From the NCBI GenBank assembly GCA_022766785.1, contig JALEOL010000073.1, positions 1 to 43,629 of the forward strand: a stretch of 43,629 nt of DNA, read 5' to 3'. Position numbers and translations under genes: made by a program. The notes under the pieces were generated by a model that was not told the origin of the DNA, searched no databases, and saw only the letters and a program-made list of their open reading frames with translations. Each line of letters opens with the position of its first letter. Position 1 is the first letter of the stretch. Origin of the DNA: Oscillospiraceae bacterium. GTDB taxonomy: Bacteria; Bacillota; Clostridia; Oscillospirales; Ruminococcaceae. Positions 17,333 through 27,319 of this stretch are shown piece after piece.

Positions 17333-17362
17333 AAAAAAAGCGGCGCACCAGAGCAGTGCGCC
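17333..17362 (-). terminator. Early operon terminator
   Basis: Minus-strand GGCGCAC and GTGCGCC form a 7-bp stem with a 7-base loop, followed by GCTTTTTTT. It directly follows the Mor-like gene and precedes the middle promoter. Confidence 0.85.
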
Positions 17363-17368
17363 ATAAAA

Positions 17369-19011: not shown

Positions 19012-19851
19012 TTAACTCCCACCCAGCAGCTCCCGCATTTCCTCGAACCCCTGCCGGGCTGCGGTTTTTCTGTGAGAAACGCCCCGGAACTCCACCGGAA
19101 AACACCGTTCCAGCACCCGGTCGTATATCCTCGCCAGCCGGATATCTGCCGGGCGTTTCAGCTCCTCCAACGTCAGATTTGTAGTGTAGATTACCGGTAA
19201 TCCTGCCCGATAACGGCTATCCACCACGTTATAAACCTTTTCCAGAGCATAGTCGGTTGACCGCTCCGCGCCGAGGTCATCAAGGATAAGCATGTCAATA
19301 GCTGCCATTCGGCAGCATAGTTCGTCTGCGCCGCCGTCAATCAGCTTGACAAGCGAGGTCATAACCACCGGAAAACCCTGCTCCAGCAGAGCATTGGCAA
19401 TGCAGGCGGCGGCGAATGTCTTGCCCGTCCCCACGCTGCCGAAAAGCAGCAGTCCCCGGTTTTCCTGCTTCATCTTCGGAAACAGGTCGGCATATCTCCG
19501 GCACATTCCTATGCTGACGGAGTTCTCGCGCTCATCGGCGGCGCTGAACCGAACCTCGGACAGCGCCGAGTCCATAAGCGACAGCTTACGCAGCTCCCAC
19601 TGCCTTGAAGCGGCAAGAGCGGCGGCGCTCTGTTTTTTCTCGGCTTCGGCGGCTTTCTTGCGGCATTCGCACCACACCGGAACGATTATCTCCTCGCCGC
19701 TGACTTCTATGCGGCTGCGCTTGAGCTGGCGGCACGTTCCGCAGCGGAGCAGTCCGTCCTCGCCGGTATAGTCGCCCTCCAGCGGAGGATTTGTCTGAAC
19801 ATGTACCGCTGCAAGGGATTTCACAAAGTCTGCTGCGTTAATCCTTTCCAT
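19012..19851 (-). CDS. DnaC/IstB-type helicase loader ATPase
   Basis: 279 residues from ATG 19851. An N-terminal zinc-binding part has CGTC (about 35) and CEC (about 60). The AAA+ core carries Walker A LFGSVGTGKTFAA (about 137-149), Walker B MLILDDLGAE (about 188-197), sensor 1 YTTNLT and an arginine region RIYDRVLERC. Loads the host replicative helicase on phage DNA. It overlaps the preceding replication gene by 14 bases, and the pair forms an initiation unit. Confidence 0.88.
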   Translation of the reverse strand: MERINAADFVKSLAAVHVQTNPPLEGDYTGEDGLLRCGTCRQLKRSRIEVSGEEIIVPVWCECRKKAAEAEKKQSAAALAASRQWELRKLSLMDSALSEVRFSAADERENSVSIGMCRRYADLFPKMKQENRGLLLFGSVGTGKTFAAACIANALLEQGFPVVMTSLVKLIDGGADELCCRMAAIDMLILDDLGAERSTDYALEKVYNVVDSRYRAGLPVIYTTNLTLEELKRPADIRLARIYDRVLERCFPVEFRGVSHRKTAARQGFEEMRELLGGS

Positions 19852-20275
19852 ACTCGTCAAACGGATTGCCTGTCATGGGAGCGGCGGTCTGATGTGCCGG
19901 AGTAGTGTCGGAGAATTGCCCCTCGGACACTTTCAGCAGATTAGACGGCTGCATTAACCAGTCGAAATTAGCGCGCCACTTTCGGCTGTTCCTTCCATTG
20001 AGAAACGGACTGGCGGCGACTTTCCGGAATACCTGCTCAAAATCGTAACCGTCCTTCTGCGCCCGGACTATTGCCCGGCGGCGCTTATCTGTCAGTCTGG
20101 TAGCCGGAGGAAGCCCGGTGCAGATACTGTTGTAGCAGTCCAGCACCGATTTGTAGTCCTGCTCCGGTGGATTCTTAAGTTCCTTGAGAAATACCTGAAG
20201 CTCTTTCCACTGGCTGGCGGTAAGCTCCAGATCCACCGAGCGGTCGTTATCATAGTCATAAAGCCTGAATTTCAT
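19838..20275 (-). CDS. Replisome organiser-like protein
   Basis: 145 residues. The region from about 40 to 120 (YNSICTGLPPATRLTDKRRRA, FRKVAASPFLNGRN, WRANFDWLMQPSNLLKVSEG) matches the C-terminal helicase-loader-binding segment of phage replication initiators (DnaD/O-protein-like). The N-terminal 35 residues are short, so a full origin-binding domain is absent. ATG has AAAGGAGAG upstream. It is the first gene after twister ribozyme 1 (20325-20401). Confidence 0.75.
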   Translation of the reverse strand: MKFRLYDYDNDRSVDLELTASQWKELQVFLKELKNPPEQDYKSVLDCYNSICTGLPPATRLTDKRRRAIVRAQKDGYDFEQVFRKVAASPFLNGRNSRKWRANFDWLMQPSNLLKVSEGQFSDTTPAHQTAAPMTGNPFDEYGKD

Positions 20276-20324
20276 GCAATCACTCTCCTTTCTGTCAGTG
20301 ACTTATGCAGCGCACTGACGTTAT

Positions 20325-20401
20325 CCCTGCTCTGTGTTTTCGGGCTTGCAACCGTTTCCGGAATTACCGGAAGCCACATTAGGGCGGGGGACTATGCCCC
20401 C
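20325..20401 (-). ncRNA. Twister self-cleaving ribozyme 1 with 5' GC hairpin
   Basis: On the minus strand: hairpin GGGGG-CATAGT-CCCCC (20386-20401), then CCCTAATGTGGC, a stem TTCCGG/CCGGAA, the invariant twister string CGGTTGCAAGCCCG, AAAACACAGAGC and AGGG. P1 is CCCT/AGGG, P2 TGTG/CACA, P3 TTCCGG/CCGGAA, P4 CGG/CCG. Cleavage would fall between U and A of CCU-AAU. The second copy at 21874-21956 shows matching compensatory changes. The stop codon of the upstream gene lies in the first hairpin. Confidence 0.9.
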
Positions 20402-20601
20402 GGAATCATACTATTTTGTTTTAATTTTATGATTTCTTCCGGAGCAAGTCCGGTGTCCTCGTATGCGGCAAGCCTATTGAGTGCATTGGTTAGAGCATTC
20501 GCTTCGGAGAAAGATAATTCTGCATAAAGTTCGGGCATTACATCAGAAAGCGCGATGATATCGGCATTTCCGAATTCGTCAATTTCTGTTAATCTATCCA
20601 T
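20392..20601 (-). CDS. Small phage protein of a common family, function unknown
   Basis: 69 residues from ATG 20601, preceded by GAGGAG; an upstream in-frame start lacks a site. It reads MDRLTEIDEFGNADI and contains ALNRLAAYEDTGLAPEEI, a string widely seen in small Clostridia phage proteins. No activity is known. Its last codons (GGG GCA TAG) form one arm of the hairpin before ribozyme 1. Confidence 0.75.
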   Translation of the reverse strand: MDRLTEIDEFGNADIIALSDVMPELYAELSFSEANALTNALNRLAAYEDTGLAPEEIIKLKQNSMIPGA

Positions 20602-20683
20602 GTTGCTACTCCTCATTCCACTGTTCCAGTAGGGTTTCATAGTTCATAACAGCCATTCAGCACCGCCCAGTATCTACGGGATT

Positions 20684-20875
20684 TCATTTTGCCACCTCTT
20701 CCTGAAGAAGCACATAACGTCCGCTGTTGTCCAGCTCATAGGTAAAAATGACCTTCCCGGTCTTGACATAGTGCATAGCGCAAATATCTGTTATGCGCAT
20801 TGCTTTTCCGTCCGGGGTAGCGATCACATCGCCAATCTCATACTTGCACCTTGCTGTAAATGCTGACACTTTCAT
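20684..20875 (-). CDS. Small early phage protein, SH3-like
   Basis: 63 residues from ATG 20875 (GAGGGTGG upstream). The text CKYEIGDVIATPDGKAMRITDI and YELDNSGRYVLLQEEV suggests a small all-beta, SH3-like or transcription-factor-binding fold. Function unknown. Its stop overlaps (ATGA) a 16-codon frame at 20637-20687 that may or may not be translated. Confidence 0.65.
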   Translation of the reverse strand: MKVSAFTARCKYEIGDVIATPDGKAMRITDICAMHYVKTGKVIFTYELDNSGRYVLLQEEVAK

Positions 20876-20892
20876 GTAACCACCCTCTTTCA

Positions 20893-21285
20893 TCAATGAC
20901 ATTCCACCAACTCAATCGACCGGTTATTCTTAATAAGATGAGCTTTCAGTCGGGAAAAGCTGCCCCAGTACGGAAGAAAAACAGAGTATGACGCTCTCTG
21001 CTCTATCCTTTCCCTATCAGCTTTTCTGAGTTTCTTCAGCTTGGCTTTCTCGGACTGTTTCAAAAGCGACTTCTTGGATTCAAAATAGAACCGGCGGCGG
21101 ATATCACAGTCATTTATTGACCATTCGCCTTTGATAAATCCGTCAACATAAACCGTAAACCCAAACTTCATTTTTCCGGTTAAAGCGACCACTATATCCA
21201 CGGTATATCCGTCAATTAACAGCTTGGCACGACCGAAAGGCGGTACTAAATTCTTTTCAAGCTCTTTCCACTGCTCGTCAGTCAT
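20893..21285 (-). CDS. Early phage protein, unknown function
   Basis: 130 residues from ATG 21285, which overlaps the end of the HD-domain gene by eight bases. It opens MTDEQWKELEKNLVPPFGRAK; the middle is beta-rich (AKLLIDGYTVDIVVAL, FGFTVYVDGFIKGEW) and residues 75-105 are very basic (SLLKQSEKAKLKKLRKADR), then YWGSFSRLKAHLIKNN. The basic part suggests nucleic-acid contact. I recall similar proteins in Firmicute phages but no function. Confidence 0.7.
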   Translation of the reverse strand: MTDEQWKELEKNLVPPFGRAKLLIDGYTVDIVVALTGKMKFGFTVYVDGFIKGEWSINDCDIRRRFYFESKKSLLKQSEKAKLKKLRKADRERIEQRASYSVFLPYWGSFSRLKAHLIKNNRSIELVECH

Positions 21286-21853
21286 TCCCGTACCCCCGTT
21301 CCACAATATAAGTAGCCTTCATATCCGCCAAATGCAGCAGAACCGCCAGAGGGTACTTTTCAAACGCGATATTCAGCCCCCGGTCGCCGCCCCGGAACGC
21401 GCTGTCGAAACCGCCCATGTGCCAGCGGATCGCCGCAGCCTCCTCATCGGTGAGCTTGATGTACTTACTTATAATATAGAGCGACTTTTCGCCATGACCG
21501 AGCGGCAGATCGTCCTGATAGGTGTAAACCTGTTTTTCCACCCACGCACCGTTTTCCTTGACGTTCCGGGTTTCCTTGCCGTAGCAGTTCGCCTTGCAGA
21601 TATCATGCAGCAGAGCTACAACAATGACGGTTTTGTAATCGTAACCTGCTTCATCAAGGCAGTCTAGCACATTCATACTGTGTTTGAGTAAACCACCCTC
21701 GAATGCTCCATGATACTTTGTGCTTGCCGGAGCGGTGAAAAAGTCTGTTTCCTCCTGCAAATAACGAATAAGCTCCTCAATGCCATCTCTTCCAGTGAAG
21801 CGGAGCAGCTTGACAAAATCGTCCGACAAATTCTTCTGCGTTTCCTTGTCCAT
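21278..21853 (-). CDS. HD-domain phosphohydrolase
   Basis: 191 residues from ATG 21853 (GGGAGGATATTT upstream). The metal-binding HD pattern is present: HSMNVLDCL (about 58), LLHDICK (about 81-87), a downstream GHGEKSLYII and IRWHMGG, and LLHLADMKA near the C-terminus. Such proteins hydrolyse nucleotides or phosphodiesters. In an early phage operon it could act on nucleotide pools or on host signalling nucleotides; the sequence does not tell which. It is the first gene after twister ribozyme 2. Confidence 0.8.
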   Translation of the reverse strand: MDKETQKNLSDDFVKLLRFTGRDGIEELIRYLQEETDFFTAPASTKYHGAFEGGLLKHSMNVLDCLDEAGYDYKTVIVVALLHDICKANCYGKETRNVKENGAWVEKQVYTYQDDLPLGHGEKSLYIISKYIKLTDEEAAAIRWHMGGFDSAFRGGDRGLNIAFEKYPLAVLLHLADMKATYIVERGYGND

Positions 21854-21873
21854 AAATATCCTCCCTGTAAAGT

Positions 21874-21956
21874 GTCCTTGCTCTGCGTTTCCACGGGCTT
21901 GCAACCGTTTCCAGACGAGCCGGAAGCCGCATTAAGGACGGGGGGACTAAGCCCCC
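21874..21956 (-). ncRNA. Twister self-cleaving ribozyme 2 with 5' GC hairpin
   Basis: Minus strand: hairpin GGGGG-CTTAGT-CCCCC (21941-21956), GTCCTTAATGCGGC, stem TTCCGG/CTGGAA, CGGTTGCAAGCCCG, AAACGCAGAGC, AAGGAC. P1 is GTCCTT/AAGGAC (6 bp). Relative to copy 1, P2 changes from TGTG/CACA to TGCG/CGCA and P3 keeps pairing through a G-U, which is real covariation. The conserved core is identical between copies while linkers differ, so both appear active. Confidence 0.9.
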
Positions 21957-25744: not shown

Positions 25745-25805
25745 CATGCTCCGACCTGCCATCATCAGCGCAGGGCGGTCATTCCCTGCGGACAAGCAAG
25801 CACAT

Positions 25806-26231
25806 TCAGCGCTTGCTTGTTTCGGCTAAAGTAATATCGTCATAACGCCAAGTAAAATCTGAGTGGATATCAGCAATGGTATCTGATAGTACAGGACAGT
25901 CCCCTGATGTTCCAGACCAGAAACTAGGATCAGGTTCATCCAGAGAAACAAATACAGCTTTTCCTTTGCGCCTTTTTTGTTTTGTGCGTTCAACTCCTAC
26001 AGCTGAACGCATGGCATTATATGCTATCGTACAGAAACTGTACTTGTGAAGTTCTGGAATAGCGAACCAGCGCTTTACTGAAAGCAGGTATCTGAATATA
26101 ACTACGTCATACCAGTCATCGAATGGAAGTCGGTCCTTCACTAGATATGAGATCACGATTCCATGATGTTCTGATGCAAAAATCTGTTCCTCGGATGTAA
26201 GAGGAGAGTAATGAAATCTTTCCCGGCTCAT
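25806..26231 (-). CDS. Sigma-factor-like protein (region 2 type)
   Basis: 141 residues. EEQIFASEHHGIVISYLVKD and DDWYDVVIFRYLLSVKRWFA followed by YSFCTIAYNAMRSAVG resemble region 2 of sigma-70 family factors (core binding and -10 recognition), then a basic stretch KQKRRKGKAVFVSLDEPDP. No region 4 is present, so it is either a truncated sigma factor or a core-RNA-polymerase-binding regulator. ATG overlaps the previous stop by four bases. A role in redirecting host polymerase early in infection is inferred. Confidence 0.65.
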   Translation of the reverse strand: MSRERFHYSPLTSEEQIFASEHHGIVISYLVKDRLPFDDWYDVVIFRYLLSVKRWFAIPELHKYSFCTIAYNAMRSAVGVERTKQKRRKGKAVFVSLDEPDPSFWSGTSGDCPVLSDTIADIHSDFTWRYDDITLAETSKR

Positions 26232-27219: not shown

Positions 27220-27319
27220 GTAGATGGATTAATATGCCCTGTGGGTAATCCACGGGTTACAAGTTTATTATAATCCATATATGTGGATTTGTCAAGAGAA
27301 AAATTCGCTTTTATGGATT
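27203..27319. promoter_or_regulatory. Operator cluster of six TGGATT boxes
   Basis: TGGATT at 27203, 27225, 27284 and 27314, and its complement AATCCA at 27247 and 27272 (first bases given). The first three are exactly 22 bases apart (two helical turns), and the 27272/27284 pair forms an inverted repeat AATCCA-N6-TGGATT in the early promoter spacer. Likely binding sites of the repressor and/or Ner-like protein. Confidence 0.75.
27267..27295 (-). promoter_or_regulatory. Early promoter Pe (perfect consensus)
   Basis: Minus strand TTGACA (27290-27295), 17-base spacer, TATAAT (27267-27272): a perfect sigma-A promoter for the early operon. The spacer contains the operator inverted repeat, so repressor binding would block it directly. 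It faces the repressor promoter, and the two transcripts overlap by about 35 bases, as in Mu. Confidence 0.9.

Follow-up and report, generated by a model that had tools for sequence, protein, structure and literature searches.

A Mu-like prophage and its early operon

The window analysed here is the whole 43,629-nt stretch of Oscillospiraceae contig JALEOL010000073.1. It carries a Mu-like prophage with its early genes on the minus strand (table 1). MuA, MuB and Gp27 are clear family matches and stand in Mu-like order with the GemA- and Mor-like genes, whose matches are weaker and fall below the Pfam cut-offs. A small gene grouped with MuA and MuB is of the membrane type by eye. The operon would begin at a likely promoter upstream of the regulators and end at a terminator-like hairpin with a T-run directly after the Mor-like gene. 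Both scans report consensus matches; from them we infer, at the level of a suggestion, a single early transcript of about 9.9 kb. Between its two ends the minus strand also has seven promoter-like and three terminator-like sites, all weaker. Just past the Mor-like gene and terminator there is a further strong promoter-like site (11/12, 17307-17279, minus), at the spot expected for a Mu-type middle promoter.

Table 1. Features of the prophage early region in the window.
Feature	Position	Strand	Evidence
Likely early promoter, TTGACA-17-TATAAT	27267..27295	minus	consensus scan, 12/12
Hammerhead_II (RF02276), 5' of MuA gene	25750..25827	minus	42.8 bits, cut-off 37
MuA-like transposase, 669 aa	23601..25610	minus	phrog_310 transposase 3.5e-99; Mu-transpos_C 5.8e-10
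MuB-like DNA transposition ATPase, 323 aa	22628..23599	minus	phrog_296 1.8e-48; AAA_22 1.4e-16
P0-like hairpin 5' of twister 1	21941..21956	minus	GGGGG-CTTAGT-CCCCC register; sequence reading and fold
Type-P1 twister ribozyme 1	21875..21938	minus	RF03160, 57.4 bits, E 1.9e-10
HD-domain phosphohydrolase, first gene after twister 1	21278..21853	minus	PF01966 3.7e-5; phrog_28876 9.8e-46
P0-like hairpin 5' of twister 2	20385..20402	minus	sequence reading and fold
Type-P1 twister ribozyme 2	20324..20385	minus	RF03160, 43.6 bits, E 1.7e-6
Replication initiation/DnaD-like protein, first gene after twister 2	19838..20275	minus	phrog_345 3.8e-23; phrog_10469 1.9e-20
DnaC-like helicase loader	19012..19860	minus	phrog_50 1.3e-47
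MazE-like gene	18981-18733	minus	family match
GemA-like gene	18095-17595	minus	match below Pfam cut-off
Mor-like gene	17641-17369	minus	match below Pfam cut-off
Likely early-operon end, terminator-like hairpin and T-run	17341..17363	minus	directly after Mor-like gene
Gp27 gene	16601-16062	minus	clear family match

Three predicted cut points fall within this operon at gene boundaries, one at a type-II hammerhead and two at twisters, and cutting at fixed points would be expected from the known activity of these classes. The predicted cuts would yield four pieces: the regulators; MuA, MuB and small genes; the HD cassette; and the replication genes through to Mor. The initial annotation had described a Mu-like prophage whose early transcript is cut at two twisters. 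The prophage and the two twister sites stand; the number of cut points does not, as the hammerhead had been omitted.

Both window elements are type-P1 twisters by model score, pseudoknot and conservation

The window was compared with 4227 Rfam families by cmscan, in which both copies matched all 68 positions (1-68) of RF03160. Both lie on the strand of their flanking genes, within one base of the positions first assigned to them. The covariance models gave no further twister in the window at E up to 5; the rest of the genome added one weak match (20.9 bits, E 0.079). The P1 and P2 helices and the UAA at the cut are present in each copy, and cleavage is predicted between 21934 U and 21933 A in twister 1 and between 20381 U and 20380 A in twister 2. 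P1 (UCCUU/AAGGA in twister 1) differs between the copies yet pairs in both (5/5 and 4/5 pairs), and P2 changes from TGTG/CACA to TGCG/CGCA with its pairing kept. The T1 pseudoknot, formed by L4 with the strand after GA(G), reads TGC:GCA in both. The letters of the T2 pseudoknot, at what we take to be their location, are present by eye and nearly invariant, so that there is no covariation to read in them. The linker after P4 is shorter in twister 2 than in twister 1. Each copy is flanked by two genes and closely followed by a ribosome-binding site outside the ribozyme: on the minus strand, twister 1 is followed by GGAGG (21864-21860) and an ATG at 21853, and twister 2 by AGGAG (20289-20285) and an ATG at 20275. 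Identity, cleavage-site details, paired changes and placement thus hold as the initial annotation had given them.

Significant E-values were obtained over the whole model, although both copies miss the RF03160 gathering score of 67.2 bits, which is a curation threshold and not a structural feature. For this reason both are absent from a default Rfam scan. A search of 100 genomes, the prophage's own included, returned 27 RF03160 matches in 15 genomes, the window's two among them; none of 14 control genomes was matched. Since none of the 27 reaches 67.2 (best 66.5), the cut-off appears too strict for this clade, and default Rfam annotation would miss every type-P1 twister scored here.

The Rfam structure line draws no T1 pseudoknot. 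In distinct instances from relatives, viral contigs (among the matches listed) and named genomes, we paired the three letters of L4 with the three letters after GA; 160 of 173 instances could be parsed. T1 was fully paired (three pairs) in 139 of the 160, whereas shuffled partners gave 64 on average and 78 at most; its types include CAC:GTG, TGC:GCA, CCC:GGG, GAC:GTC, TCC:GGA and CTC:GAG. The other 13 could not be parsed as type P1, and those of their loci that were read again have a permuted, type-P5 arrangement. The viral twisters are a pattern-defined sample of at least 137 instances; among the matches listed, 133 were distinct (105 type P1, 21 type P5 and 7 unassigned).

Model score, independent pseudoknot covariation and conservation together support the assignment of the window elements as genuine type-P1 twister ribozymes. 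They share with RF03160 a full-length match with P1, P2, P3, P4, the UAA cleavage site, the L4 core and T1, and differ from it in the gathering score not reached and in a 5' hairpin that is nearly always present (25/26 modules). It is very improbable that they are decayed, inactive relics. Scores under the Rfam cut-off, the weaker second copy and some core changes would fit such decay (CCAG for CAAG in 3/27 modules: L034 6083, L039, L040; AAGTCCG for AAGCCCG in 5/27 cores: two in L043, two in L044, L036 7039), but diverged phages preserve most of the core, P2 and T1 and show compensating changes in them.

A type-II hammerhead precedes MuA

The element 5' of the MuA gene has the type-II arrangement CGAAAC, stem III, GUC, stem I, CUGAUGA, with its predicted cut at 25791/25790. 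It is of the same type as RF02276 and above the family cut-off, and differs only in placement, its 5' part overlapping the end of the upstream ORF. The first 22 nt cover the end of the 26231-25806 ORF, which stops inside the ribozyme, 15 nt short of the cut, and its translation may accordingly compete with folding of the hammerhead or block it.

The layout is conserved in the genus and partly seen in other phages

Twisters were found in 13 of 43 genus genomes, with exactly two in 11 of these. Of the 12 genus genomes in which MuA was matched, 11 carry twisters. In the twelfth, G023, there are MuA and a hammerhead but no twister, on a contig that ends 17 bases after the MuA match. One twister genome (G014) has a MuA match of only 30% identity; two others (G029 and G012) carry twisters without a MuA match, a twister lying within about 1 kb of the contig start. 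Hammerhead-II matches occur in 9 of the 43 genomes, and in G039 at a looser threshold; G041, with its partial MuA match, gave none.

On gene maps drawn with a simple ORF caller rather than from annotation, the commonest order is hammerhead, MuA, MuB, small genes, twister, DnaD-like, DnaC-like, twister, MazE-like. Several relatives have members missing or added (L031, L032, L044), and in the window and L034 the HD cassette lies between the two twisters, with no twister before the MazE-like gene. A similar order is seen among phages whose MuA is 51-66% identical to that of the window. In two gut-phage records, MT835475 and MT835795 (MuA identity 52% and 46%), MuA is closely preceded by a hammerhead and followed after about 1.4 kb by a twister. 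For the more distant Mu-like Bacillus phage BalMu-1 (MuA 39%), a scan of 12.8 kb returned nothing from Rfam at E up to 0.1. Among named isolates, Bacterium D16-76 (L166) carries a hammerhead and two type-P1 twisters, and Clostridium sporosphaeroides DSM 1294 (L172) a type-P5 twister. Modules and prophages are related, and the counts given here and below are not of independent cases.

Two relatives carry larger sets. In L030 (G050:C3, 7970-13916), six type-II hammerheads and one twister lie on one strand in a stretch of about 6 kb inside one Mu-like early operon, by total number the densest ribozyme cluster in this collection, with a RAGATH-28 RNA about 4 kb further downstream; viral contig L218 has the same ribozyme set with equal scores. 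L203 (G039:C3) has five weak type-II hammerhead-like elements of another subtype (AGTCGAAAC...CTGATGATGACAGG), all minus; a ribosome-binding motif and start codon come after four of them, and three were found again in a later scan.

The RAGATH-28 RNA brings in another feature of these prophages. The gene after Gp27 in the window (16062-15541, minus) is a LoaP-like NusG paralogue (NF033641, E 1.9e-25, below cut-off), and the gap between it and the terminase genes (15540-15375, minus) holds sequence blocks conserved in the genus. In relatives this junction holds Rfam RAGATH-28 (L030 4194-4275; L039 13704-13789). Of 10 RAGATH-28 matches, from 9 of 394 genomes, nine lie within about 250 nt 3' of a gene of the LoaP-like family; the tenth and weakest (L216, 32.4 bits) is not beside such a gene. 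Two gut-phage records also contain the RNA, at 46.9 bits and, below the cut-off, 38.5 bits. Instead of being a ribozyme, RAGATH-28 may serve phage LoaP as an antitermination RNA; the LoaP of Bacillus is known to need an RNA hairpin (PMC12691694).

A hairpin lies between the stop codon and the twister cut

Just 5' of each window twister, and absent from the initial annotation, is a short, GC-rich hairpin at or just past the upstream stop codon. Hairpin 1 can also pair in other registers, and its tail to the cut, 7 nt in the register of table 1 and 8 nt in the scoring of the modules, is longer than usual, the longest of the modules. The loop of hairpin 2 holds the TAG stop codon of the 20640-20392 gene. 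An intrinsic terminator at the twisters was considered and rejected: no T-run comes after the window hairpins, and the minus-strand terminator scan lists none there.

A strong hairpin (stem score of at least 14) precedes the twister in 25 of 26 distinct modules. Dinucleotide shuffles reach this score in 27% of cases. When the best of three offsets is taken, the comparison is 25 of 26 with 138 of 411 other gene ends at the same loci (Fisher 1e-10), a control in which strong stems are common (34%). The one module of the 26 in which none was found is L038 6799. In 23 of the 25 strong cases the tail from hairpin to cut measures 3-5 nt. The first five pairs form in all 25, from 13 different 5' arms, whereas swapping arms gave a mean of 6.7 and a maximum of 12. 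The type-P1 cut falls 24-32 nt past the stop codon in 20 of 27 modules (11, 19, 35, 50, 70, 119 and 124 nt in the remaining seven), and the hairpin largely occupies this gap. Viral type-P1 twisters, among the matches listed, have a strong hairpin at 35 of 40 junctions between a gene stop and a gene start and at 34 of 65 other places (p 2.6e-4); without locus-edge instances the same comparison, again among the matches listed, gives 32/36 against 26/55. Outside clear junctions the viral proportion, among those matches, still exceeds that of shuffles (22%).

We take the hairpin 5' of the window twisters to be P0, a stem that sits 5' of P1. P0 is described as optional and as occurring in 21% of annotated twisters (PMC6154101), against 25/26 for the 5' hairpin here. 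Being a known optional stem, it may help the ribozyme to fold and not protect the 3' end, and the 3-5 nt tails in 23/25 would place it beside P1. We nevertheless regard it as unlikely that the hairpin is merely a structural helper stacking on P1, with cleavage carrying no selected role at the 3' end, since gene junctions have the hairpin more often than other places do, and at like sites type-II hammerheads and type-P5 twisters produce a hairpin end in which P0 has no part.

Other ribozyme architectures leave a similar upstream end

The structure just ahead of the cut is the P1 hairpin itself in type-P5 twisters and stem III in type-II hammerheads, so that all three architectures leave upstream RNA ending in a hairpin. 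By a simple ORF rule, and with near-duplicate prophages included, 14 of 25 type-II hammerheads begin within 2 nt of the upstream stop codon; as the cut marks of the layout script are wrong for some relatives, only the cut of the window copy is used here. Among the matches listed, 8 of 14 type-P5 twisters at junctions begin within 1 nt of a stop codon. Arrays of type-P5 twisters in phage contigs (L126, RF02684) resemble the window in having ribozymes before successive genes, soon after a stop codon, and differ from its type-P1 copies in being circularly permuted, with the P1 hairpin ending the upstream RNA. In L126 there are four, each followed by a ribosome-binding motif and a start codon. It is possible, at somewhat under even chances in our judgement, that phages use type-P1 twister with hairpin, type-P5 twister and type-II hammerhead, whose architectures are unrelated or permuted, as interchangeable makers of mRNA 3' ends at stop codons.

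A proposed role in making mRNA ends

Self-cleavage by ribozymes of this class leaves a 2',3'-cyclic phosphate and a 5'-OH, and 3' exonucleases act poorly on hairpins whose tail is only a few bases long. We therefore favour the making of mRNA ends as the function. We infer that genuine twisters and the type-II hammerhead probably cut a roughly 10-kb early transcript at three boundaries in this host, into separately stable mRNAs that end in hairpins. Just past the stop codon, each upstream mRNA would close with a short GC-rich hairpin whose short tail carries a 2',3'-cyclic phosphate; this hairpin would act like a terminator stem and block 3' exonucleases. Each downstream mRNA would have a 5'-OH at its start, then the folded body of the ribozyme and, after it, a ribosome-binding site left free. 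With the ribozymes as RNA-end makers, a single promoter would serve the genes for regulation, transposition, the HD cassette and replication, each group on its own individually stable mRNA, presumably to the benefit of the phage. From the positions of the elements it is reasonable to expect, as first proposed, that these mRNAs differ in lifetime. Against parts of the scheme, the 7-8 nt tail at twister 1 may be long enough for an exonuclease to load, and twister 2 has a lower score and a shortened linker.

Cleavage could instead serve mainly the downstream mRNA, whose 5'-OH end and structured leader would resist 5'-end-dependent decay or free the ribosome-binding site. We hold this to be a real possibility that falls a little short of probable. 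The start codon lies 60-90 nt past the cut in 22 of 27 modules and 105-154 nt past it in the other five, a ribosome-binding motif is present in 26 of 27 (L045 is the exception), and in both window copies the motif is left outside the ribozyme, all as expected for effects on the downstream message; the hairpin that fills the space from stop codon to cut in 25/26 modules would go unexplained. Effects at the downstream 5' end and the making of mRNA ends are rival accounts but compatible ones.

We also considered that the modules are mainly recombination boundaries, similar 80-nt repeats for swapping cassettes, with self-cleavage making the junctions tolerant of new neighbours. Module identity is higher within prophages (median 0.82, 11 pairs) than between them (0.73, 265 pairs; p 3e-4), and the contents of the inter-twister segment vary, from the HD cassette in the window and L034 to the order twister, DnaD-like, DnaC-like, twister in several relatives. 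Bare repeats, however, need neither an intact catalytic core nor a covarying pseudoknot, and we think this account quite improbable.

Still more doubtful, with very little probability in our view, is that the segment between two twisters is circularised as an mRNA by RtcB or by the reverse reaction of the ribozyme, for which an engineered circle flanked by twisters is the comparison. Both ends of the segment would have the right chemistry, these segments measure 1.5-2.8 kb in 10 prophages, and RtcB was found in 9 of 11 host genomes checked, though neither the window's own genome (85.75% complete) nor G017 yielded it. A self-circularisation by re-docking of P1 was rejected, as P1 cross-pairing reaches 3.2/5 within a prophage (n=10) and 3.13 between prophages.

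Implications for ribozymes near Mu-like phage genes

Twister and hammerhead ribozymes are enriched near Mu-like phage genes and near each other, according to PMC10085705 (its refs 25 and 26), which in 2023 stated that the reason for the association was unknown; PMC6155905 likewise calls the role of these ribozymes an open question. The literature searched, as far as its text was available (including PMC10085705, PMC6154101, PMC6155905 and PMC7761336), contains statements of association and no established role in phage operons. In the texts so covered, neither a hairpin set at the stop codon nor the splitting of an operon by these ribozymes was described. The ribozyme classes and their association with Mu-like phages are known already, and the window elements add new members. 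To the association reported in PMC10085705, the present analysis adds which gene junctions are involved, that these are conserved, and that the upstream products share a hairpin end.

With the window locus and its relatives, the clustering of ribozymes near Mu-like genes becomes concretely testable, since the cut sites are named, the segments are defined and the hairpin can be removed. If the three architectures are indeed interchangeable, the upstream message would end in a hairpin, as a rule with a tail too short for exonuclease loading, and ribozymes near Mu-like phage genes would have a common job, the splitting of operons, which would need no terminators, extra promoters or protein RNases.
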